Source: a virus
Reading direction: 5' to 3' (one strand)
IMG/VR virus record: IMGVR_UViG_3300023094_000003
Location: 1-43,649 of that record
DNA: 43,649 nt
Position 1 is the first letter of the stretch, and each line of letters starts with the position of its first letter. Shown here piece after piece: positions 128-43,649 of this stretch. The position numbers and the translations under genes were made by a program. The notes beneath the pieces were generated by a model that saw only the letters and a program-made list of their open reading frames with translations, searched no databases and was not told the origin of the DNA.

Positions 128-2380
128 GTTAATAAGTTCATTGCTTACGTGCATAACGCAGGGGATGATACTACCAAGATGATCTGGGCTAATGGCAAAG
201 AGCAGTTTGAAGATGCTGTTCAGAGCTATAAGAAGTATATTCAAGAGAATGGGATGGGTGATAAAGTTCGTGTCGTAACCAAGGCAGAACAAGCTGACTG
301 GAACATTCTGAATGGTCGGCTCGACCCGATCACGATGGAAGTAGCTAACATTGGAATGCAAAAGACTGGTGCTGCTACTCAGGCTATTAATCGTTCAACC
401 TTGGATGTGTTTAGTGAAATAGCAGGAGGTTATGAACATTCTATTACTTCTCATGTACGGAATCTGGCTGAGCTGAATCTTCATGAAGTTACTGGCATGC
501 TCGATAACATGTCTGTAATTAATCAAGCTTCTGTTAAGAGTCAGCCTCTTGGGGAGATTAAGAAGATCATCAATCAGCCTAAGGATGCAGCTGCTACTCT
601 GAAGAATACCCTCCTAGGGAATTCAAACATTGGAGAATATGCAGGCTGGCAGAAGATCAACCAGAGCTTTGAGACCGGGCTCACAATGGGTTTGAATGCT
701 GTTACTTCTATCTGGGATGGTACTATTGGCTCCCTTACGAAGAGAGTATTCGGTAAGAACTCTGACCTCACTCCTGAGATTATGCGAAAGGTGGACTATG
801 AACAGATGGCTGCTGAATTGAAGACTAGGGGGATTGTCAATCCGTGGGCCTCCTTCGATGATGAAGCTGCCAAAATGTATGGCCTTTCCAAACTAGAAGA
901 TCACAAGGATTCCTCTAAGCGTATCATCTATGCGTCGAATGCTCTCGCTGCTACTGTTGCTCTGCGAATTGGTGAGCTTGCTCAGCCTATTGTTAATATT
1001 CTATCTCTCCCTATCCTCACGGGATTGGCTACTGCATCTAAAATGCCTGCTGAATTCATGGGTGTAGTGAGAGGGACGATGAAAGACGTAGGGGGTGTGC
1101 AGATTATGTATGAAGGGGCCAGGGCCGCCAATTCCCCGCTCTGGAAGAAGTTTGATGACCTCTGGACCAAACAGGGACATTACACCAGTTTGGTGAGTGA
1201 GGCGTCCAACGTGTTGAGGGCTTCTAGATCCTTCGAGAAGGGCGCTATTTCCAAGGTGGAGAACGCTCTTGACTCAAGGATGGTAGAAATCATGAGCAAA
1301 CCTGCCGATTGGTCTGAGAGCTTTGTGCGCCGTCAAACGATGTTCACGGGTGCCGTTTTGGCGAAACGCCTTTACCCTGAGCTATCTGACGAGGGAATCA
1401 CAATCTTTGCACGAGACTTCATGGACAAGGCTGTAGGGAACTTCCATGCTGCGCAACGACCAGTGTTCTTCCAAGGCACATTGGGTGTTGCACTGGGTCT
1501 ATTCCAAACGTACTCGCTGACTCTGGGGCAGAGCATCTATAGGCAATTGGAGATGAAGAACTATAAGGCTCTTGGGAAAGCAGCATTAACTCAGAGTGGT
1601 ATCTTCGGTGTAGGTTCAATGCCTGGGTTTAAGCAAATCTCAGAGACAATTGGAGATCATTTCAGTGATGAAAATGTTGATCTTACCACTGGAACTTATC
1701 GTGCTATTGGCGATAAGGCTGCTGATATGTTGCTATACGGTCTGCCTTCTAATCTTGGCCCTAGCTTCTATTCCCGTGGTGATGTTAGCATTAGGCCTCC
1801 AAATGTTCTGGCGGGTTTGCAGAATACTGTGGCGGTCTCGTTCGTAAGTCAGACACTGGATATGTTTGGGCAATTGAAGAATGCAATGGCTTCAGATAAT
1901 CCTGATATGGCTAGAGCATTGGGGGAGAGCCTGAGTATGCAGAGTATGTCTAGGCCACTGGCACGAGGTAGTGAATTGCTTACAGGGTATTCGGTGACAA
2001 GGAAGGGGAATACTGTACAAACCCCAGAGGAAGTATGGACTGCTACTGGTATCATGGCTAGAGTACTGGGGACACGACCTCTAGAAGAGGGTAAGCTTAG
2101 GGAAGCAATGCACTTGAATACCTTCTACGGTAGCAAGGATAGAGAAGCCAGGAATGCAGTTACTATGAAATTGAAGACTGCTATCCGAGGTGGTGAACTT
2201 ACTCAGGAGCAGATCGATGGATTCGCTGAACAGTATATGAGGAAAGGTGGAACTCCTACTGGCTGGCAGAGTGCATTGAATACTGCTGTGGCTCAGACGG
2301 ATATCAAAGGAGATATTACTTTGGTGGATAAGATGAAGCCAAACAATCCTTTGAACTATATGATTTCTAATCTTGATTAA
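1..2380 (+). CDS. Giant internal/ejection virion protein, C-terminal part (residues 1080-1872)
   Basis: This is the 3' part of the gene that starts at 40284. Codons begin at position 2, in phase with 40284, so the first ATG here (position 20) is internal residue 1087 and not a start. This half has a hydrophobic stretch around residues 1390-1435 (nt 930-1070) and further apolar segments. Near residue 1560 it has a segment rich in F, Q and Y (key run FQGTLGVALGLFQTY) of the kind seen in large podoviral ejection proteins. The expected role is a T7 gp16-like inner-core protein that enters the cell envelope with the DNA; this is inferred from size, place and composition. It is the last large gene of the late operon, and a short gene follows after 10 bases. 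The full protein is 1,872 residues. Confidence 0.8.
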   Translation, partial: KKLINGMQEQSTELLNLANAGKKIKGQADVTDLGLWIPSFNPVNKFIAYVHNAGDDTTKMIWANGKEQFEDAVQSYKKYIQENGMGDKVRVVTKAEQADWNILNGRLDPITMEVANIGMQKTGAATQAINRSTLDVFSEIAGGYEHSITSHVRNLAELNLHEVTGMLDNMSVINQASVKSQPLGEIKKIINQPKDAAATLKNTLLGNSNIGEYAGWQKINQSFETGLTMGLNAVTSIWDGTIGSLTKRVFGKNSDLTPEIMRKVDYEQMAAELKTRGIVNPWASFDDEAAKMYGLSKLEDHKDSSKRIIYASNALAATVALRIGELAQPIVNILSLPILTGLATASKMPAEFMGVVRGTMKDVGGVQIMYEGARAANSPLWKKFDDLWTKQGHYTSLVSEASNVLRASRSFEKGAISKVENALDSRMVEIMSKPADWSESFVRRQTMFTGAVLAKRLYPELSDEGITIFARDFMDKAVGNFHAAQRPVFFQGTLGVALGLFQTYSLTLGQSIYRQLEMKNYKALGKAALTQSGIFGVGSMPGFKQISETIGDHFSDENVDLTTGTYRAIGDKAADMLLYGLPSNLGPSFYSRGDVSIRPPNVLAGLQNTVAVSFVSQTLDMFGQLKNAMASDNPDMARALGESLSMQSMSRPLARGSELLTGYSVTRKGNTVQTPEEVWTATGIMARVLGTRPLEEGKLREAMHLNTFYGSKDREARNAVTMKLKTAIRGGELTQEQIDGFAEQYMRKGGTPTGWQSALNTAVAQTDIKGDITLVDKMKPNNPLNYMISNLD

Positions 2381-18242: not shown

Positions 18243-18450
18243 TCTTGCTCTCCTTAGCTTTCTTATCTTGGCGTTCTTTATACATTAGTCGCACTAGCTC
18301 TAGGCCACCTAGCTGGTCGCCTTCAGGAGATAGGACAGTGTAGAAGTGGGAGATATTCTTAACTTGATGGGACTTGTAGCAATAGTATGCTTCTGCGAGA
18401 GAGGCAAACCAATTGTGCTGAGTCTTTCTGTTGATGATGCAGACTATCAT
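18235..18450 (-). CDS. Small hypothetical protein (71 aa)
   Basis: It has a short N-terminal strand (MIVCIINRKT), then a helix (FASLAEAYYCYKSHQV), a strand (FYTVLSPEGDQLGG) and a basic C-terminus. The four-base overlap with the 466-aa gene upstream couples their translation. Function unknown. Confidence 0.68.
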   Translation of the reverse strand: MIVCIINRKTQHNWFASLAEAYYCYKSHQVKNISHFYTVLSPEGDQLGGLELVRLMYKERQDKKAKESKNV

Positions 18451-19847
18451 GATTGCGACCCCCCGGATTGATTAGACAAAAGCATCTTCTTCTTCCACAG
18501 AATTTTCTCTACCATAGACAAACCTTCTGGCATCTTGCTAGTGTCTACATTCTCTGTAGTAACAGTGGCAGTAAAGACTTCTTCTACAGTAGCTTCTTTC
18601 TGTTCGACAAGGGTGTAGTCTCCGTCCGCCTTCGGCTCCGAGGGAGTGTAGAGAATGTCTTCCAGGTCATCAATACTATTAGCCTTGCGCAGAGCAGAGT
18701 AGTCATTCTTTAGAATCTCTGTGAGACGCTTAGCAGACTTACCTTCTAGCTCTTCTACTTTGCTAATCACCTGAGATAACATGAAAGAATCCACTGTAAG
18801 AAACACACTCTCATTAACCAAGTTACCCAGAAAGCCAATGAGCTTCTTACTAGCTTCTATTCCCTTCAACAAACCCTTAGCTTCAATCATATCCTTACGG
18901 AACTGGGTTTTCTCTTTCTTTAGGGGATCAATCTTAGCTGCTACCTTAGCTAGTCTGTTCTCTTTTGCATGCTCTCTTCGTAGTTCCTTCAAACCCTTCA
19001 TGGGCTTATCTAGAAGTGCATTCTCGTCATAGAATTCAGTATCAGGTTCTTCTAATGCACTCTGAACTAGCTTCATCCACTCTGTAAAGCGTGCTTCTAT
19101 TCCAGATTCTTTTAAGACACTATCGTATATGAGAGAGAGTTTAGGGATGAATGTGCAGTTACCGGTGTTGAGATAAGACTCAATAAGCAAGATACCCTGA
19201 ATCAACTTCTCTTTAGAAGCAGTCCTAAGGATAGCGTTGTTTTCAGCTCCAGTAGCACTAGGCGTTGTCCTGATAAGCTCATACTCATTAGCTAGGACAA
19301 TGAAAACACCAGAGAGAATCTGTGTGTCTAGGCTGTTAAGATAATCATAGCCTTCTTGCGCTATCCCTCTACAGTTCCCATAGTCAGCAATAGGAGAAAC
19401 GAATTCTAAGACCTTGCCCGGAATAGCAGGAATATTCAGGATACTAACAACACCAGTAACTTCGCACACTACGGTTGCATGCGTATTTCTAAGACTCAAC
19501 AACAAGTTCCTAGAGACTTTCTTATGAATTCCATCAGGGCTAGTATTAACAACGGCCCCCCGAATCTTCTTAGAATTCTTAACAGTCTCTATCCTAGCTA
19601 GCTTTTTCTGAGCATACTTGCTGATCTTAGCTTCTATGTTCATTGTTTCTTCCATAGAGGTTCTAGTATCCTTAGATTCTACTTCTACCAATTTTGTAGA
19701 AACCATAGTGTCTTTTCCGAATACTTCTTCAATGGTCTTTCCTTCTTCTGCTAGATCACTAGCTAGAATACCAAAAGGATCATCAATCCTCAATTCAGGC
19801 ATTTTATTCTCTTTAAATGCTTTAACCAATCTTTCGATTGTGTCCAT
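18447..19847 (-). CDS. Large hypothetical early protein (466 aa)
   Basis: No family is recognised, although this is one of the largest early genes. The first ~90 residues are charged and probably flexible. A mid region (~90-250) looks like an alpha/beta domain with a basic entry (KKIRGAVVNTSPDGIHKKV), CEVTGVVSILNIPAIPGKV and GNCRGIAQEGYDYLN. A helical, Lys-rich part follows (~290-390: KGLKELRREHAKENRLAK), and the tail is acidic. GGAG lies 9 bases before the ATG. It follows a terminator and a 97-base gap, so it may head its own transcript. A nucleic-acid-binding role is possible from the basic helices but unproven. Confidence 0.78.
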   Translation of the reverse strand: MDTIERLVKAFKENKMPELRIDDPFGILASDLAEEGKTIEEVFGKDTMVSTKLVEVESKDTRTSMEETMNIEAKISKYAQKKLARIETVKNSKKIRGAVVNTSPDGIHKKVSRNLLLSLRNTHATVVCEVTGVVSILNIPAIPGKVLEFVSPIADYGNCRGIAQEGYDYLNSLDTQILSGVFIVLANEYELIRTTPSATGAENNAILRTASKEKLIQGILLIESYLNTGNCTFIPKLSLIYDSVLKESGIEARFTEWMKLVQSALEEPDTEFYDENALLDKPMKGLKELRREHAKENRLAKVAAKIDPLKKEKTQFRKDMIEAKGLLKGIEASKKLIGFLGNLVNESVFLTVDSFMLSQVISKVEELEGKSAKRLTEILKNDYSALRKANSIDDLEDILYTPSEPKADGDYTLVEQKEATVEEVFTATVTTENVDTSKMPEGLSMVEKILWKKKMLLSNQSGGSQS

Positions 19848-33132: not shown

Positions 33133-33627
33133 ATGGCAGATAAGAAACTAACATTCGACCAAGCCTTCGACAGGCTTATTGGACATGAAGGAGGTTATGT
33201 AAATAATCCCAATGATCCAGGCGGTGAAACTAATTGGGGTATTAGCAAAAGAAGCTATCCTCATATCAACATCAAGGCTCTTACCAGAGAAGGAGCTAAG
33301 AAGATTTATAAAGATGATTTCTGGGATGCTCTAAATGCTGATCGCTTGCCTTCTAGTGTTATTTATCAACTGTTTGATTTTGCTATTAATAGCGGGATAC
33401 AAACTGCTATTCGGTATCTACAAAGAGCGATCGGGGTGGCGGATGACGGACATTGGGGGCCTATGAGCCAAGGAGCTGCAGATACTACAGGTGAGCAAGA
33501 TATGCTTTTCCTCTTGAATGCAGAGCGTCTTGAGTTCATGACTAAGCTTAAGAACTGGCCAGATGCTTCTAGAGGATGGGCTCGTAGAATTGCAGGTAAT
33601 CTTCGTTATGCAGCAAAGGATAATTAA
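33133..33627 (+). CDS. Endolysin, glycoside hydrolase family 108-type (164 aa)
   Basis: The signature HEGGYVNNPNDPGGETNWGI has catalytic Glu19, and the C-terminal part (IRYLQRAIGVADDGHWGPMS) matches the peptidoglycan-binding PG_binding_3 unit of this family. These enzymes cleave the glycan of Gram-negative peptidoglycan. It has no signal peptide, so it needs a holin, probably the next gene. GGAG precedes the ATG. Confidence 0.93.
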   Translation: MADKKLTFDQAFDRLIGHEGGYVNNPNDPGGETNWGISKRSYPHINIKALTREGAKKIYKDDFWDALNADRLPSSVIYQLFDFAINSGIQTAIRYLQRAIGVADDGHWGPMSQGAADTTGEQDMLFLLNAERLEFMTKLKNWPDASRGWARRIAGNLRYAAKDN

Positions 33628-38475: not shown

Positions 38476-40254
38476 ATGGCTGATCTTGAAGAACTCTTCC
38501 TGCAACAAACACAAGGAGCAGCTGATGCTGGAGTAGATATTGCTTCAGTATTCAGTCAGGCTCGTACGACTGCTCCTGCTGTGGCTGATGTACTAGCTCC
38601 TAAAAACGCCCCGAAGTCTTCTGACACTGGCATTATCAATGGTTTTCCTGCTACCCGCTCTGGTACTCCACCGAGTGAAAGCGTAGCAGATGCTAATGCT
38701 TTTATCAGGAAGAATAGAGAAGGTGGAGGTGATAAAGTAGCTGCTTTGTTCAAAGGTAATGCTTTGGCAGAGCAGGCAGGAGTGCGAGCTGAGATTGGCC
38801 CTAATGGAGAGATTAGCCTTACCAATGTTCCTCAGCAACCTGTAGCTCTAGGAGGTCAAGGTCCTGGTAAAGGGGCTATTGCTCCTAATACTCCTCTCAG
38901 TGTTGGCTCTCTCTTTAATCAGCTTAAGACCACTAGTGACGTAGATACGGCTCGTGGTATTGGCGCATCTCTCAGAGAAGCTGGTGCTATTGAAGCTGCT
39001 AAGTTTGAAACACAGGCTCAGACCTTTGCAGCTACTAAACTTGGTTTGCCCCGACTGCAAGCTGAACTCAATGCTGCTATGGCTGCGGATCAGAGTGATC
39101 CTAAGTATCTTCCAGGTATGGGGGATAGTCCTATTACAGCTAAGATTCGTACGAATATTGAGCAGATCACTTCGCTTGCTGGTACAGAAGCTGCTCGGTT
39201 CTTGGCTGGTAATGCACAGTATGCTGTATTGAAGGCTACTCTTTCTAATGCAGACAGTGAGCTTGCTCGGATTACGAGACTTGGAGATAGGAAAGCAGCT
39301 ATCGAAGACAATGCAGCTTTGCGCTCTGCAATGAAAAGAGAAGACAAAGAAGCTACTCTTGAAGATGCAGCACGTGGCTTGAGTGGGGTTCAGAGACAAC
39401 GTTTGATTATGCTGAATCCTGAACTTGGCTCATCGACGCCTGATAAGATTGATGCAGATATGATGCGCACTATTCAGGTTAGAAGCAAAGACAAAGCTTG
39501 GCAACAAGTTTTCGATGCTCCTGAAGAAGCTATGCCTGTACTGGCTGTCATGGGTAATGCTTATGCAGCAGGTCTTATTCAGGCTAAAGAGCAAGCTAAT
39601 GCTGGAGTCGACCCCGCGATTACCTCCCAGAGAATTCAGAATGTTCAGAAGCTCATGGGTAATCCTACCTTCATGAAGCAGGCTCTTGAACAACAGTACA
39701 TGGGACAGAAGGATGCTAAGAAGCTCATTGCAGATGAACTAGCTGCATTCAATGCCAAGGGTCTTAGTGCAGAAGGTAAGCAACAGCAACAAGCTCAGAA
39801 GGCTGCTCTTGCTCTGTCTCTGGTTAAACAGTCTATTACTGCTGAATTCGCAGGTAATGCTGGTTCCTGGAAGATTGCTGACCCTCTGTTCCAAGGTGCG
39901 GTACAGCAAGCTAGACAAGTTACTAACGGTACTAAGATGATGGACGTCTACGCTGCTTATACGAAGGATGTTACTGGTCCTGCTTTGGTTCAGAAGACTC
40001 AAGCATTTGCTGATCTTATGACTCAAGAAGCTTTGAAGAATTCTAAGAGTATCTTTGGTGCGCCGAATTACCTTGCTTTGAGAAGCCAGCTTGCACGACA
40101 GACTGCTACTTCTTACATGCAACTTCTTGGCAATGCAGGTAAGGCTGTCTTCGGTGTTTCCTATGATAAGCCTGAAGATAGTGAGTGGAAAGATCCTATG
40201 ACTCAACAGGATTTTACTACGCAGGCTACTGGTAGAATGCCAGGGCAGAGTTAA
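38476..40254 (+). CDS. Internal virion/ejection protein, medium (592 aa)
   Basis: AAGGA lies 6 bases before the ATG. It is Ala/Gln-rich and nearly all helical (LRSAMKREDKEATLEDAARG; QVRQVTNGTK-type helices later). It is the second of three consecutive internal proteins, corresponding in order and size to T7 gp15-like ejection proteins. No enzyme motif is visible. Confidence 0.75.
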   Translation: MADLEELFLQQTQGAADAGVDIASVFSQARTTAPAVADVLAPKNAPKSSDTGIINGFPATRSGTPPSESVADANAFIRKNREGGGDKVAALFKGNALAEQAGVRAEIGPNGEISLTNVPQQPVALGGQGPGKGAIAPNTPLSVGSLFNQLKTTSDVDTARGIGASLREAGAIEAAKFETQAQTFAATKLGLPRLQAELNAAMAADQSDPKYLPGMGDSPITAKIRTNIEQITSLAGTEAARFLAGNAQYAVLKATLSNADSELARITRLGDRKAAIEDNAALRSAMKREDKEATLEDAARGLSGVQRQRLIMLNPELGSSTPDKIDADMMRTIQVRSKDKAWQQVFDAPEEAMPVLAVMGNAYAAGLIQAKEQANAGVDPAITSQRIQNVQKLMGNPTFMKQALEQQYMGQKDAKKLIADELAAFNAKGLSAEGKQQQQAQKAALALSLVKQSITAEFAGNAGSWKIADPLFQGAVQQARQVTNGTKMMDVYAAYTKDVTGPALVQKTQAFADLMTQEALKNSKSIFGAPNYLALRSQLARQTATSYMQLLGNAGKAVFGVSYDKPEDSEWKDPMTQQDFTTQATGRMPGQS

Positions 40255-40283: not shown

Positions 40284-43200
40284 ATGGCTGAAGAGAATAC
40301 CTTTGACAATGTCATTAACACTGACTTCCATAACTCGAACTATCAGACTCAGCTTGATCTGACTCGGACTATTACAGGTGGGGCTGTAGCTACTGTGACA
40401 GATGCAGCAGCTTCTATCTGGAATAGTCTTCCTATAACTCCAGAAGTGGAGACTAGAGACTTGCTGGGAAGAATCAGTAATGATGCTCTGCAAGTTTACA
40501 ATGAGAATCCTGAAGCTATTGAAACTGCCTCTTTTGTGGCAGGTAGTCTGCTGCCTATTGGTATCGCAACTAAGAGCATGGGAGCTGCTAGAGCTGGTGT
40601 CAAGGGTATGAATTGGTTCTCTAAGGCAGGAAAAGAAGCTGACCTTAGTGTGATTAATACTCTTTTCTCTGAAGGTAAAGCAGCTACTAGTGAGTATAAG
40701 AGTCTTCTCAGGCAAACTTATGCTAAGGGTGCAGTCAATCAAGCCATTGATGCACTAGCTGCTGAAGTAGCTATTGTCGGCATGATGAATGCTCATCCTT
40801 TGATGGAAGACTATCTAGAAGATCCAGTTAAGAACTTCGCCATTTCTGCTGCCTTTGGCGGCGTGATTGGCGGAGCTATTGGTCATATCGGTGACAGATA
40901 TGCTGTTAGAAGTTTGACTGGAGCTACTGAAGCTAAGGCTATTCAGGAGACTCTTGGACAACTTAGGGATATTGCACCAGATATGACTTCTGCTGTTAAG
41001 CTCCAGAGCTATGCACTGAATGTTAAGAACCTTGATAACATGCTGGAAATGGGTAAGGTAGAAGGAAAACTGCCCACTAATAATCTTGCTATGTCCTTTG
41101 CTGAGAAGATGAAGGAAACTCAGAGTGCGATGCAAGCTACTCTATTTGATGACATTGCTTCTCCCATGATTAAGAATCTTCCAAAAGAGGAAAGAGACTT
41201 CTTCATGCGTGCAGTAGTGGAAATGCCAGAGATGTTTGGTGTTGAGAAGGTGTCTTTGTTTACGGAAAAGCAAGCTACGGGTAAGGCGGGATTGAAAGGT
41301 CCTAAGGAGGTACTGACTGCTAAACCGGAACTGGCTAAGATTGAAGGAGCTACTGTAGGTGGCTGGCCCTCGATCGCCCCTATGGAATTCAATAATCTTA
41401 AGAATAAACTTACTAATGAGTGGCTTTCAGCTCATCCTAATAGTGAGATTTATAAAGCTTATGATACTGCACTTGATGCAGCTAGCTTGCCCAATGATTG
41501 GATTGAAGCACTTAAAGTAGCACAGAAAGAAAAGAATGTTGAGCTTGAGAACTTCGTAGGTTATAAGCTTGAACGCTTTCTTGAAGATACTCAGAAGAAC
41601 TCTCCTTCGGATGCTGTGAAGCTGGAAGCTAAACTTAGTGCGTTTCGTCCTAAGGGTACTCCAGGAGTTCTGAAAGAAGTTAAGAGTGTCTACTACCCCG
41701 AGCATAAGCTCTTCGGTCTTGAGAGTGATGTTACCAACTATGGTAATGCTGCCTCTTTGGGAAAGACTCTTCCTGATCTAGAGAAGACATACGCAGGTGC
41801 TTACAATTTCGGTAAGGTACCTAATCTTGACTCGGCCCTCGAATTGGCCGGGAAGAGTAGCGCGGAAATTGATGGTCTATTCGCTGCTTATAAGAGTCGT
41901 GTCTCTAAGATGGATGAGACTGCCCTTAAGAATCTTACTATCGGGCAAGATGATCTCCCTCTTCTCAGTGCAGTAATCACCAAGATCAAAGAAGATCCTG
42001 CTATGGTTATGAAACTTCAGATGAAAGTTTCTGATCGTAGTCCTGTCTTTGAGGCTATTCTGAAGAGTAATGCAGGTAAGACTGGCGCAGGTATGCCTCA
42101 GGATTATGCACAGGAAGTAGGTAAGTTCACAGCTCCGGGTAAGATTAATCAATATAAGCCCGGTGCTCTGAGTACTCTCGATGGTGATGCTGAGAAGTTC
42201 ATTAGTGCATGGCTTGCGGGGGATCAGAAGTATCTCAATAGAGCTGCTCTCTCTTGGTCTGCTAAAGGCTTTAGTGCTGCTAGTCCTGATCCTCAGATGG
42301 TGACTGGTAAGAGAATCTTTGATGCAATTTACAATAGTCAAGAGTCTACTGCTCTGAGGGATCAATTCCGTAGAGTAGCGGATATCAATGGCGATGTTTA
42401 TCTCTATCGGGGTAGTAGGGCCAGCAAGATTACACAACAAAACATTCTGGAATCTTACTCGACAGACCCTAAGAAGGCAGCAGAGTTCGGTACTGTTCGT
42501 ATGTACAAGGTGCATGTGGATAATATTGCTGCAGGATGGGATGATCTTAAAAGCTCAGATGGCCTGAGGAAGAATGAGATTCTTGTCCTCTCTGGAGCTC
42601 GTCCTGAAGAAGCTGTCTTGGATGCTAACTTGAAGCCTGTCTTTAAGAATCAACAACAACAAGGTGCAATTGTTGTCAGTGATAAGAACAGTAAGTCTGT
42701 TTACGTCTCTGATCTTGAAGACCTTCTTGTCTCAGGAAAAGAACAGCAGATTGATTCTCTTCTCTCTCAAGGTATTCCAATGCAGTCTATCGCATTGAAG
42801 ACGAATACACCAGTCAATATCGTGGAAGCTTATGCTTTTGCTAAGCCTTCAGGTACTGGCTTGCGTGAGCTTGTCCAAGATGTTAATGAGCTTATTACTA
42901 CGAAGACTCTTGCTGTTGCAGAAGAAAGGACTAAGATTCAGAATGCACCTCTCCGTCTGGAAGGGAATATCAAGAAGAATCCTTATACTGAAGCTCATGC
43001 TAGTCTGAACAACAAGCAGATGAAAGATATGTCAGATACCATCATGATGGCGTCTATGTATTCTTCGCAATCAGGAGCTGTCAGAGAGATGGCTGATTTC
43101 TTCTACAAGGAGATGAAACAACCTCTGGATATCCTGAAGACTGAATTGGCTAGAGTTAACAATGAGTATGCAGGGAATAAGTTCCTAAATAGTACGGATT

Positions 43201-43649
43201 TCTGGGCTAGGAATATGGGCTCCGTGGGGCCGATTGCTTCTGCTATTGGTAAGCAAGTAGAGCGCATTGGAAATGATCTGAAGAAACGAGTGATCACTCC
43301 TATCTCTGATGCAATGGCTACTGTTGCTAAGGACGCCCCGAGTACCATCGAGTTCAATACATTCGTTAACTTGAATGCTTCTCTTAAAGGATGGAGACAA
43401 TTTACCCCTGACGGTACTCTTGTTCAACGTGTAGAGAAGATGGGTATTGATGGTAAGATCGCAGTAGTCCTGGAGCCTGTGCAGTTTGAAGGTAAGGTTT
43501 ACAGAGTAACCCAAGAGAGCGTGAAGAAGCTCATCAACGGTATGCAGGAACAGTCTACTGAACTCTTGAATCTGGCTAACGCTGGTAAGAAGATTAAAGG
43601 CCAAGCTGATGTTACTGATTTGGGACTGTGGATTCCATCTTTTAATCCA
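40284..43649 (+). CDS. Giant internal/ejection virion protein, N-terminal part, with ADP-ribosyltransferase-like domain
   Basis: The gene starts at ATG 40284 (weak AAAGAGA site) and continues through the junction to 2380; the full product is 1,872 aa. Residues ~70-210 have apolar helices (ISAAFGGVIGGAIGHIG). At ~640-790 is an R-S-E type ADP-ribosyltransferase signature: LYRG with Arg709, SYSTDPKKAAEFG with Ser726-Thr727, and KNEILVLSG with Glu765, preceded by a helical region (GDAEKFISAWLAGDQ). Such enzymes move ADP-ribose from NAD to protein; T4 Alt is an injected example. The rest is the long helical and apolar part of an ejection protein. So the protein may deliver an effector with the DNA; activity is not proven. 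Confidence 0.85.
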   Translation, partial: MAEENTFDNVINTDFHNSNYQTQLDLTRTITGGAVATVTDAAASIWNSLPITPEVETRDLLGRISNDALQVYNENPEAIETASFVAGSLLPIGIATKSMGAARAGVKGMNWFSKAGKEADLSVINTLFSEGKAATSEYKSLLRQTYAKGAVNQAIDALAAEVAIVGMMNAHPLMEDYLEDPVKNFAISAAFGGVIGGAIGHIGDRYAVRSLTGATEAKAIQETLGQLRDIAPDMTSAVKLQSYALNVKNLDNMLEMGKVEGKLPTNNLAMSFAEKMKETQSAMQATLFDDIASPMIKNLPKEERDFFMRAVVEMPEMFGVEKVSLFTEKQATGKAGLKGPKEVLTAKPELAKIEGATVGGWPSIAPMEFNNLKNKLTNEWLSAHPNSEIYKAYDTALDAASLPNDWIEALKVAQKEKNVELENFVGYKLERFLEDTQKNSPSDAVKLEAKLSAFRPKGTPGVLKEVKSVYYPEHKLFGLESDVTNYGNAASLGKTLPDLEKTYAGAYNFGKVPNLDSALELAGKSSAEIDGLFAAYKSRVSKMDETALKNLTIGQDDLPLLSAVITKIKEDPAMVMKLQMKVSDRSPVFEAILKSNAGKTGAGMPQDYAQEVGKFTAPGKINQYKPGALSTLDGDAEKFISAWLAGDQKYLNRAALSWSAKGFSAASPDPQMVTGKRIFDAIYNSQESTALRDQFRRVADINGDVYLYRGSRASKITQQNILESYSTDPKKAAEFGTVRMYKVHVDNIAAGWDDLKSSDGLRKNEILVLSGARPEEAVLDANLKPVFKNQQQQGAIVVSDKNSKSVYVSDLEDLLVSGKEQQIDSLLSQGIPMQSIALKTNTPVNIVEAYAFAKPSGTGLRELVQDVNELITTKTLAVAEERTKIQNAPLRLEGNIKKNPYTEAHASLNNKQMKDMSDTIMMASMYSSQSGAVREMADFFYKEMKQPLDILKTELARVNNEYAGNKFLNSTDFWARNMGSVGPIASAIGKQVERIGNDLKKRVITPISDAMATVAKDAPSTIEFNTFVNLNASLKGWRQFTPDGTLVQRVEKMGIDGKIAVVLEPVQFEGKVYRVTQESVKKLINGMQEQSTELLNLANAGKKIKGQADVTDLGLWIPSFNP
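43523..43649. repeat. Terminal overlap of a circular contig, copy 2
   Basis: Identical to bases 1-127. It lies within the giant virion gene and keeps frame when the ends are joined. The two copies should be collapsed to give a 43,522-base circle. Confidence 0.95.

Follow-up and report, generated by a model that had tools for sequence, protein, structure and literature searches.

A predicted R-S-E-class ADP-ribosyltransferase as an optional cassette in the giant ejection-type protein of a podovirus group

The giant late-gene protein of the virus represented by IMG/VR record IMGVR_UViG_3300023094_000003 almost certainly contains an ADP-ribosyltransferase (ART) fold, which spans residues ~626-790 of its 1872 amino acids. 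Taken as a whole, the observations are best explained by a virion-delivered ART of the R-S-E class, which is part of an ejection-type protein of a podovirus and would modify a host protein early in infection, an explanation that we consider likely. The window referred to throughout is the complete stretch of DNA that was analysed (43,649 nucleotides), and the positions of the features are collected in Table 1.

Table 1. Features of the giant gene and of its ART-like domain in the window (residue numbers are those of the 1872-aa product).
Feature	Position	Strand	Evidence
Giant late-gene protein, first 1122 codons	40284..43649	+	Translation; Tiera homologue over 100% of the length, 37% identity; phrog_16165, E 3.4e-57
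Giant gene, last 750 codons and stop	128..2380	+	Continuation across the ends of the circular record; phrog_16165, E 3.6e-153
Cassette missing from ART-less relatives, residues ~590-805	42051..42698	+	L030 and L032 compared with the flanks of L031
Predicted folded ART-like domain, residues ~626-790, four helices then strands	42159..42653	+	Model with pLDDT 82.2 and pTM 0.77; fold searches
Arg709-Gly710, first motif, strand 1	42408..42413	+	R in 23/24 and G in 23/24 carriers
Ser724-Tyr725-Ser726 motif, strand 2; the conserved serine is Ser724	42453..42461	+	S724 in 23/24 carriers; residue 726 is T in 16, S in 4, A in 4
Ala732-x-x-Phe735 after strand 2, register as in T4 ModA/ModB	42477..42488	+	A in 20/24 and F in 22/24 carriers
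Lys763-Asn764-Glu765, E-x-E position	42570..42578	+	Glu765 kept; residue 763 mostly E or N in relatives, K here alone

The giant gene and its relatives

The reading frame at 40284-43649 on the plus strand runs open through the end of the record, as seen in the ORF list and the translation, and bases 1-127 of the window are the same as bases 43523-43649, forming a 127-bp direct terminal repeat. The repeat implies that the record is circular and was opened inside the giant gene, so that the last and the first ORF are parts of one gene. The gene is thus longer than the frame considered in the first-pass annotation of this DNA: it resumes beyond the end of the record, at window 128-2380, and encodes a product of 1872 aa in total. 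It closes the late cluster and is the largest gene there; the terminase, portal, and capsid genes are located upstream on the same strand, and genes for proteins of 976, 310, and 592 aa directly precede it. An endolysin-like gene (window 33133-33624, plus strand; phrog_315, E 2.6e-51) lies within the structural cluster. The Pfam and PHROGs scans that were run gave no credible match for two ORFs, at window 18450-19847 (minus strand, 466 aa) and 38476-40251 (plus strand, 592 aa). The first-pass annotation had held that the phage has no RNA polymerase of its own. The gene content is compatible with this view, in that none of the 11 window ORFs longer than 400 aa matched an RNA polymerase in family scans covering part of the ORF and library combinations, but 2 of these 11 ORFs had no credible match and both halves of the giant gene matched only a family of unknown function.

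The giant protein was found in 18 of 50,697 phage records (tblastn, E 1e-5), namely Polaromonas phage Tiera, EBPR podovirus 3, and 16 Pseudomonas phage records of the 119X/PaP2/PaMx group; 119X is classified in the genus Jamesmcgillvirus of the Fredfastierviridae. Alignment-based scans of IMG/VR returned 20 loci in the first scan and 47 in the second. Of the latter, 19 were on contigs already found, 12 with an ORF of at most 1400 aa were dropped as fragments and 16 were added, bringing the homologue set to 40 proteins (24 + 16), that of the window included. When the single window protein or its domain served as the query, no related loci were found, and a scan of genome contigs with the C-terminal part of the protein recovered no relative by its patterns and hence no prophage or host.

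Motifs, conservation, and fold of the ART-like domain

The three segments on which the R-S-E proposal had originally been built, LYRG with Arg709, ESYSTDPKKAAEFG, and KNEILVLSG with Glu765, are all read in the window frame 40284-43649. Counting as carriers those proteins that have R or K at position 709 plus E at position 765, the domain is present in 30 of the 40 homologues and cleanly absent from 6 (L015, L016, L017, L019, L030, and L032); the remaining 4 are distant or degenerate rows with no recognisable triad (L060, L068, L070, and L071). Conservation was tallied at 15 positions over 24 carriers sharing no more than 90% mutual identity. G703 and E765 are conserved in all 24, the figure for E765 arising partly by selection, because carriage was defined by R or K plus E. 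D700, R709, G710, and S724 are each conserved in 23 carriers, F735 in 22, and A732 in 20. Conservation of R, S, and E among homologues, which the first-pass annotation had put forward as a check, is thus observed in 23, 23, and 24 of the 24 carriers, respectively, the exceptions being K at position 709 in L035 and G at position 724 in L018. The assignment of the motif serine to Ser726 has to be corrected: this position is T in 16 carriers, S in 4, and A in 4, and the conserved serine is Ser724, in register with the serine of ModA and ModB.

Position 763, the first residue of the E-x-E motif, is E in 12 of the 24 carriers, N in 8, T in 2, A in 1, and K in 1, the last being this phage only. Of the two residues named for this position in the earlier proposal, Glu is found in half of the family and Gln in none of the carriers; the window, with K, has neither. 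Transfer and the choice of acceptor depend, in R-S-E enzymes that have been characterised, on the first residue of E/Q-x-E, whereas use of NAD+ requires the second. We treat the first residue as a specificity feature and let the name of the clade rest on R, S, and the second Glu. Two rows depart from the family pattern in other ways. At L035:5378-5851, the first ART motif reads LYKAAKG, with R changed to K and with S and E kept, and may represent a naturally inactivated ART; in the 1697-aa homologue L060, the part aligned to window residues 690-770 contains a remnant-like PEGLVYLPK without the triad, possibly a decayed ART.

The presence of an R-S-E ART-like domain in the giant late-gene protein, as originally proposed, is borne out by the triad (23/23/24 of 24 carriers), by a profile match of 71.4 bits, and by a register shared with ModA. 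The profile was built from 13 E-x-E homologues and leaves out the window, Tiera, and every homologue whose residue 763 is N, T, K, or A; it matched the window frame with 71.4 bits (E 2e-21, 408 sequences searched) and Tiera with 80.5 bits, its region and columns having been taken from the joint alignment that includes the window and 1 of its 13 members (L025) belonging to the wider clade of the window. In the controls, 200 shuffled copies gave at most 6.6 bits, and no other window ORF exceeded 5.8 bits. When the whole 1872-aa protein was shuffled 5000 times, a loose expression, R-G...S-[YF]-[ST]-x5-[AG]-x2-[FL]...E, which was composed after the family was known, turned up in 3 of the shuffles. 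Among the homologues, the domain is 19-40% identical to that of the window.

As regards links to known ART families, no ART call above the cut-off came from Pfam, PHROGs, or NCBIfam. In Pfam, the window domain matches DRAT alone (PF07357; E 0.012-0.031, below the curated cut-off), over the C-terminal part of the DRAT profile, and 1 of 16 members gives this match. PHROGs assigns the domain of 15 of 16 members to phrog_16165, whose function is unknown, and the weak matches include phrog_352 (minor tail protein) for 2 of 16 members, the best at 0.0014; NCBIfam yielded weak unrelated names only (best 0.018), and searches of PDB sequences by phmmer and by profile returned no ART, all E values exceeding 0.4. 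An alignment of ModA-type proteins (T4 ModA and ModB plus six relatives) was compared with the family profile using hhalign, giving a score of 27.6 and a probability of 21.6% over 53 columns. In this match, the R-G motifs coincide, S724 falls on the first Ser of S-A-S in ModA and of S-F-S/T in the others, and A and F are also aligned. Scores of 200 column-shuffled copies did not exceed 19.2 (mean 11.6). The match ends before E-x-E, and a longer version of the profile gave a score of 25.1 and a probability of 7.8%; the single T4 Alt sequence produced no meaningful match to the family profile (14 columns only). Because E-x-E was among the features tested and is absent from this phage, we do not file the domain as a member of the Alt/Mod group.

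AlphaFold modelling of residues 590-830 from 14 sequences gave a pLDDT of 71.0 and a pTM of 0.66, and modelling of residues 624-800 from 26 sequences gave a better model (mdf2e127ea8ce), with a pLDDT of 82.2 and a pTM of 0.77. In the numbering of the better model, helices 11-21, 26-36, 47-60, and 63-75 are followed by strands 81-88 (R709 at 86), 99-103 (S724 at 101), 114-121, 125-131, 140-146 (E765 at 142), 152-156, and 162-164, in agreement with the helical segment that had been noticed ahead of the motifs. A short helix, 106-110, includes A732 (109), with F735 (112) just after it. The four helices thus come first, R709 lies on strand 1, S724 on strand 2, and E765 on strand 5, and this order of helices and strands fits that of ARTs.

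Foldseek returned no PDB match at E ≤0.001 for either model; ARTs made up 5 of the top 6 rows for the better model (tankyrase 2, ART2.2 three times, and iota Ia; E 0.15-0.28). With VIA, which re-ranks Foldseek's own top 1000, the best 50 of 341 chains at Z ≥2 were all ARTs for the better model (Z 4.7-6.0), and for the first model the best 50 of 311 chains comprised 45 ARTs and 5 entries of anthrax lethal factor (Z 4.5-6.8), values that lie in the range (Z <8) in which the tool warns of common arrangements. Given this warning, we put weight on the near-exclusive ART list and on the triad, not on Z. Some of the entries counted as ARTs do not carry the name in their titles (C2-I, VIP2, ExoS/ExoT, Certhrax, and others), and anthrax lethal factor contains an ART-like domain. 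Several of the best VIA alignments fall on the N-terminal half of binary toxins, which is the non-catalytic one. Against viral models, Foldseek gave 3 matches at E ≤0.001 (two unnamed and one uncharacterised), and 6 of the best 50 rows were named as ARTs. In the fold check that the first-pass annotation had recommended, the predicted model has the ART-like strand order and nearly all of the best VIA rows are ARTs, with Z at most 6.8, but the Foldseek matches in the PDB are not significant.

The Foldseek result, together with the lack of any library match above the cut-off, is what would be expected if the likeness to ARTs were a matter of chance. We consider this very improbable, given that the triad is conserved in homologues, the ModA register outscores 200 shuffles, and both VIA lists consist almost exclusively of ARTs. 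Chance resemblance was rejected on the two comparisons with shuffled sequences (27.6 versus at most 19.2 in 200 shuffles for the ModA-type match, and 71.4 bits versus 6.6 in shuffles for the profile).

Distribution of the cassette and selection

The boundaries of the module are best seen in a comparison of L031, which carries it, with L030 and L032, which do not. Identity to L031 is 87% in the N-terminal and 85% in the C-terminal flank for L030, and 81% and 85%, respectively, for L032. Judged from these alignments, the ART module is an optional cassette, cleanly present or absent between close relatives. The domain is not essential, because it is absent from 6 of the 40 homologues, 4 others have no triad, and R is replaced by K in L035. 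On a tree of 37 C-terminal parts (30 with and 7 without the module, L060 and L068 being counted as absent), its presence or absence changed at least 6 times and residue 763 at least 7 times over the 30 carriers, the tree being one that was obtained by a quick method, has 9 of 32 inner branches open as well as long branches, and leaves out L016 (cut off), L070, and L071.

Among the near-identical phages L008, L009, L010, and L024, in which R, S, and E are invariant, the variable codons of the module are non-synonymous in 13 cases and synonymous in 4, compared with 37 and 58 elsewhere (Fisher p 0.007, for a single group of four phages chosen post hoc). Within the near-identical group, dN/dS of the module was 1.9, 0.5, and 1.3 in three pairs and undefined in a fourth, and a fifth near-identical pair, L055/L056, has no synonymous change. 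More distant pairs gave module values of 0.11, 0.32, 0.32, and 0.27, with two further pairs saturated; for the C-terminal part, dN/dS was 0.10-0.12 in the three computable distant pairs, below that of the module. Over longer distances, the module is constrained, albeit less so than the C-terminal part, and the selection result is mixed. A separate observation concerns residue 643 of the L008 ORF, which is R, I, L, and R in L008, L009, L010, and L024, respectively, in otherwise nearly identical sequences. The site belongs to a short loop absent from the window and comes two positions beyond the F of A-x-x-F; it may be a variable contact site.

Delivery, proposed role, and alternatives

We infer that the giant protein is a probable ejection protein, which would be carried inside the phage and enter the bacterium together with the DNA. 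Its homologues in the 18 phage records are annotated as structural or ejection proteins in 10 cases, as hypothetical or unnamed in 6, and not at all in 2. In all 7 proteins checked, the N-terminal part has two hydrophobic stretches, one starting near residues 78-92 and the other near 182-199, with best Kyte-Doolittle means of 1.33-1.83, mostly below the usual threshold for membrane segments of 1.6. The protein resembles T7 gp16 and N4 gp50 in being a large ejection-type protein with putative N-terminal membrane-type segments, and its enzyme-like domain lies mid-protein, as in N4 gp50; the family scans made revealed no sequence relation to either, and its cargo would be an ART instead of a transglycosylase or an RNA polymerase. 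According to two papers (PMC8954989, PMC12633501), the part of T7 gp16 beyond the first membrane region reaches the cytoplasm, and the membrane segments of N4 gp50 precede its mid-protein enzyme domain. By analogy with these two proteins, the ART would be on the cytoplasmic side, which is where NAD+ is found. A term search of the main text of the Tiera paper (PMC9959647) gave no mention of mass spectrometry, LC-MS, or SDS-PAGE, and the announcement of phage Shea reports no proteomics (PMC13348215).

The domain differs from the known virion ARTs in its carrier protein, its compact spacing, and its first E-x-E residue. T4 Alt, ModA, and ModB are R-S-E mono-ADP-ribosyltransferases, of which Alt is packaged in the virion and injected, being the classical enzyme that modifies the host ahead of the phage's own gene action. 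Apart from this known case, virion-packaged ARTs have been predicted in MuF fusions, polyvalent proteins, and N4-RNAP fusions. With the three T4 enzymes, the present family shares the register of R-G and S-x-[ST]-x5-A-x2-F and, in half of its members, E-x-E, and with Alt it shares a late virion-type gene context. Unlike them, the ART described here lies as a cassette within a podovirus ejection-type protein of 1872 aa, its motifs are separated by 15 (R to S) and 41 (S to E) residues versus 24 and 69 in ModA, and its first E-x-E residue is often N, or K in this phage. DRAT, the dinitrogenase reductase ADP-ribosyltransferase that regulates nitrogenase, is, in contrast to the present domain, not a virion protein.

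As described in PMC10468400, ModB also attaches RNA to proteins via its R-S-E-x-E site. The ARTs of polyvalent proteins and N4-RNAP fusions (Tox-ART-HYD2/N4-like) are, like the present one, embedded in very large, presumably ejected proteins, but the N4-like ARTs are assigned to the H-Y-[EDQ] clade (PMC5512222, PMC9503650), whereas the present domain is R-S-E. A survey of viral NAD+-ADPr systems puts the share of siphoviruses and podoviruses with ARTs at only 3% (PMC9503650), and an earlier paper from the same programme considers Alt/VIP2-type R-S-E ARTs to be absent from genuine polyvalent proteins (PMC5512222). A term search of these two papers found neither PaP2 nor EBPR named. Open-access titles and abstracts contained no report of an ART in phages of the PaP2/119X/PaMx/Tiera type; the supplementary tables of the 2022 survey may contain one.

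The mechanism that we propose concerns a podovirus group to which Pseudomonas phages 119X and PaP2 as well as Polaromonas phage Tiera belong, and whose largest ejection-type protein would have an R-S-E-class mono-ADP-ribosyltransferase as an optional cassette. The protein would be packaged in the phage head and leave it along with the DNA in the manner of T7 gp16 or N4 gp50, its N-terminal hydrophobic segments inserting in the inner membrane so as to expose the ART to the cytoplasm. There, the enzyme would draw on host NAD+ and, ahead of phage gene expression, ADP-ribosylate one or a few proteins of the host, either to redirect host machinery, as T4 Alt does, or to blunt a defence. A change of the first E-x-E residue, which is N in part of the family and K here, may shift the acceptor or leave mainly hydrolysis of NAD+. 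Catalytic activity is probable for most of the family and somewhat less assured, though still expected, for this phage. Because the key residues are kept in relatives and some close relatives lack the module, an early host-modifying tool is likelier than a structural part, and we lean, if only slightly, toward early host modification as the role of the domain. Considerably more speculative is the idea that small podoviruses deliver a swappable R-S-E ART inside a channel-forming ejection protein, tethered at the site of DNA entry, acting before gene expression, and retargeted among hosts by E/N/K changes at the first E-x-E residue. If true, it would be, to our knowledge, the first membrane-tethered ADP-ribosylating phage effector acting at the entry site.

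The variability of residue 763 (E 12, N 8, T 2, K 1, and A 1 of 24, with at least 7 changes on the tree) also bears on another reading, in which the ART fold is kept with a changed chemistry, so that the N-x-E and K-x-E lineages, this phage included, would mainly hydrolyse NAD+ or modify an acceptor other than arginine, be it another residue type, a nucleic acid, or a small molecule. We regard this as possible but unlikely; the E-x-E lineages, half of the set, are without the change. Going further, K763 in this phage, the change of R to K in L035 and of S to G in L018, and the existence of module-less phages could be taken to mean that the fold is catalytically dead and that the ejection protein retains it for binding or as a structural module. 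This is improbable in our view, given that R, S, and E, which a mere scaffold would have no need to keep, are among the most conserved of the 15 tallied positions in a domain otherwise 19-40% identical, and that the clean absence of the module in close relatives speaks against a structural need.

An alternative that concerns the target instead of the chemistry is counter-defence, whereby the ejected ART would inactivate a host defence protein or alarm and leave RNA polymerase untouched. The patchy presence of the module, with at least 6 changes over 37 rows, and its non-synonymous excess (13 N and 4 S versus 37 N and 58 S; p 0.007, post hoc) would both fit an arms race, but relaxed constraint would likewise raise non-synonymous change. 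A precedent is the action on CRISPR of AcrIF11, which is described as a phage ART in PMC12421852. We see counter-defence as a tentative possibility, and continue to prefer a virion-delivered ART that modifies a host protein early in infection.

An R-S-E ART in a podovirus ejection-type protein would extend the Alt-like strategy to phages of ~43 kb, some of which infect P. aeruginosa. L031 compared with L030 and L032 forms a natural with/without set, which would allow a direct test of the role of an ejected effector, and the function of the first E-x-E residue could be tested through the E/N/K split.
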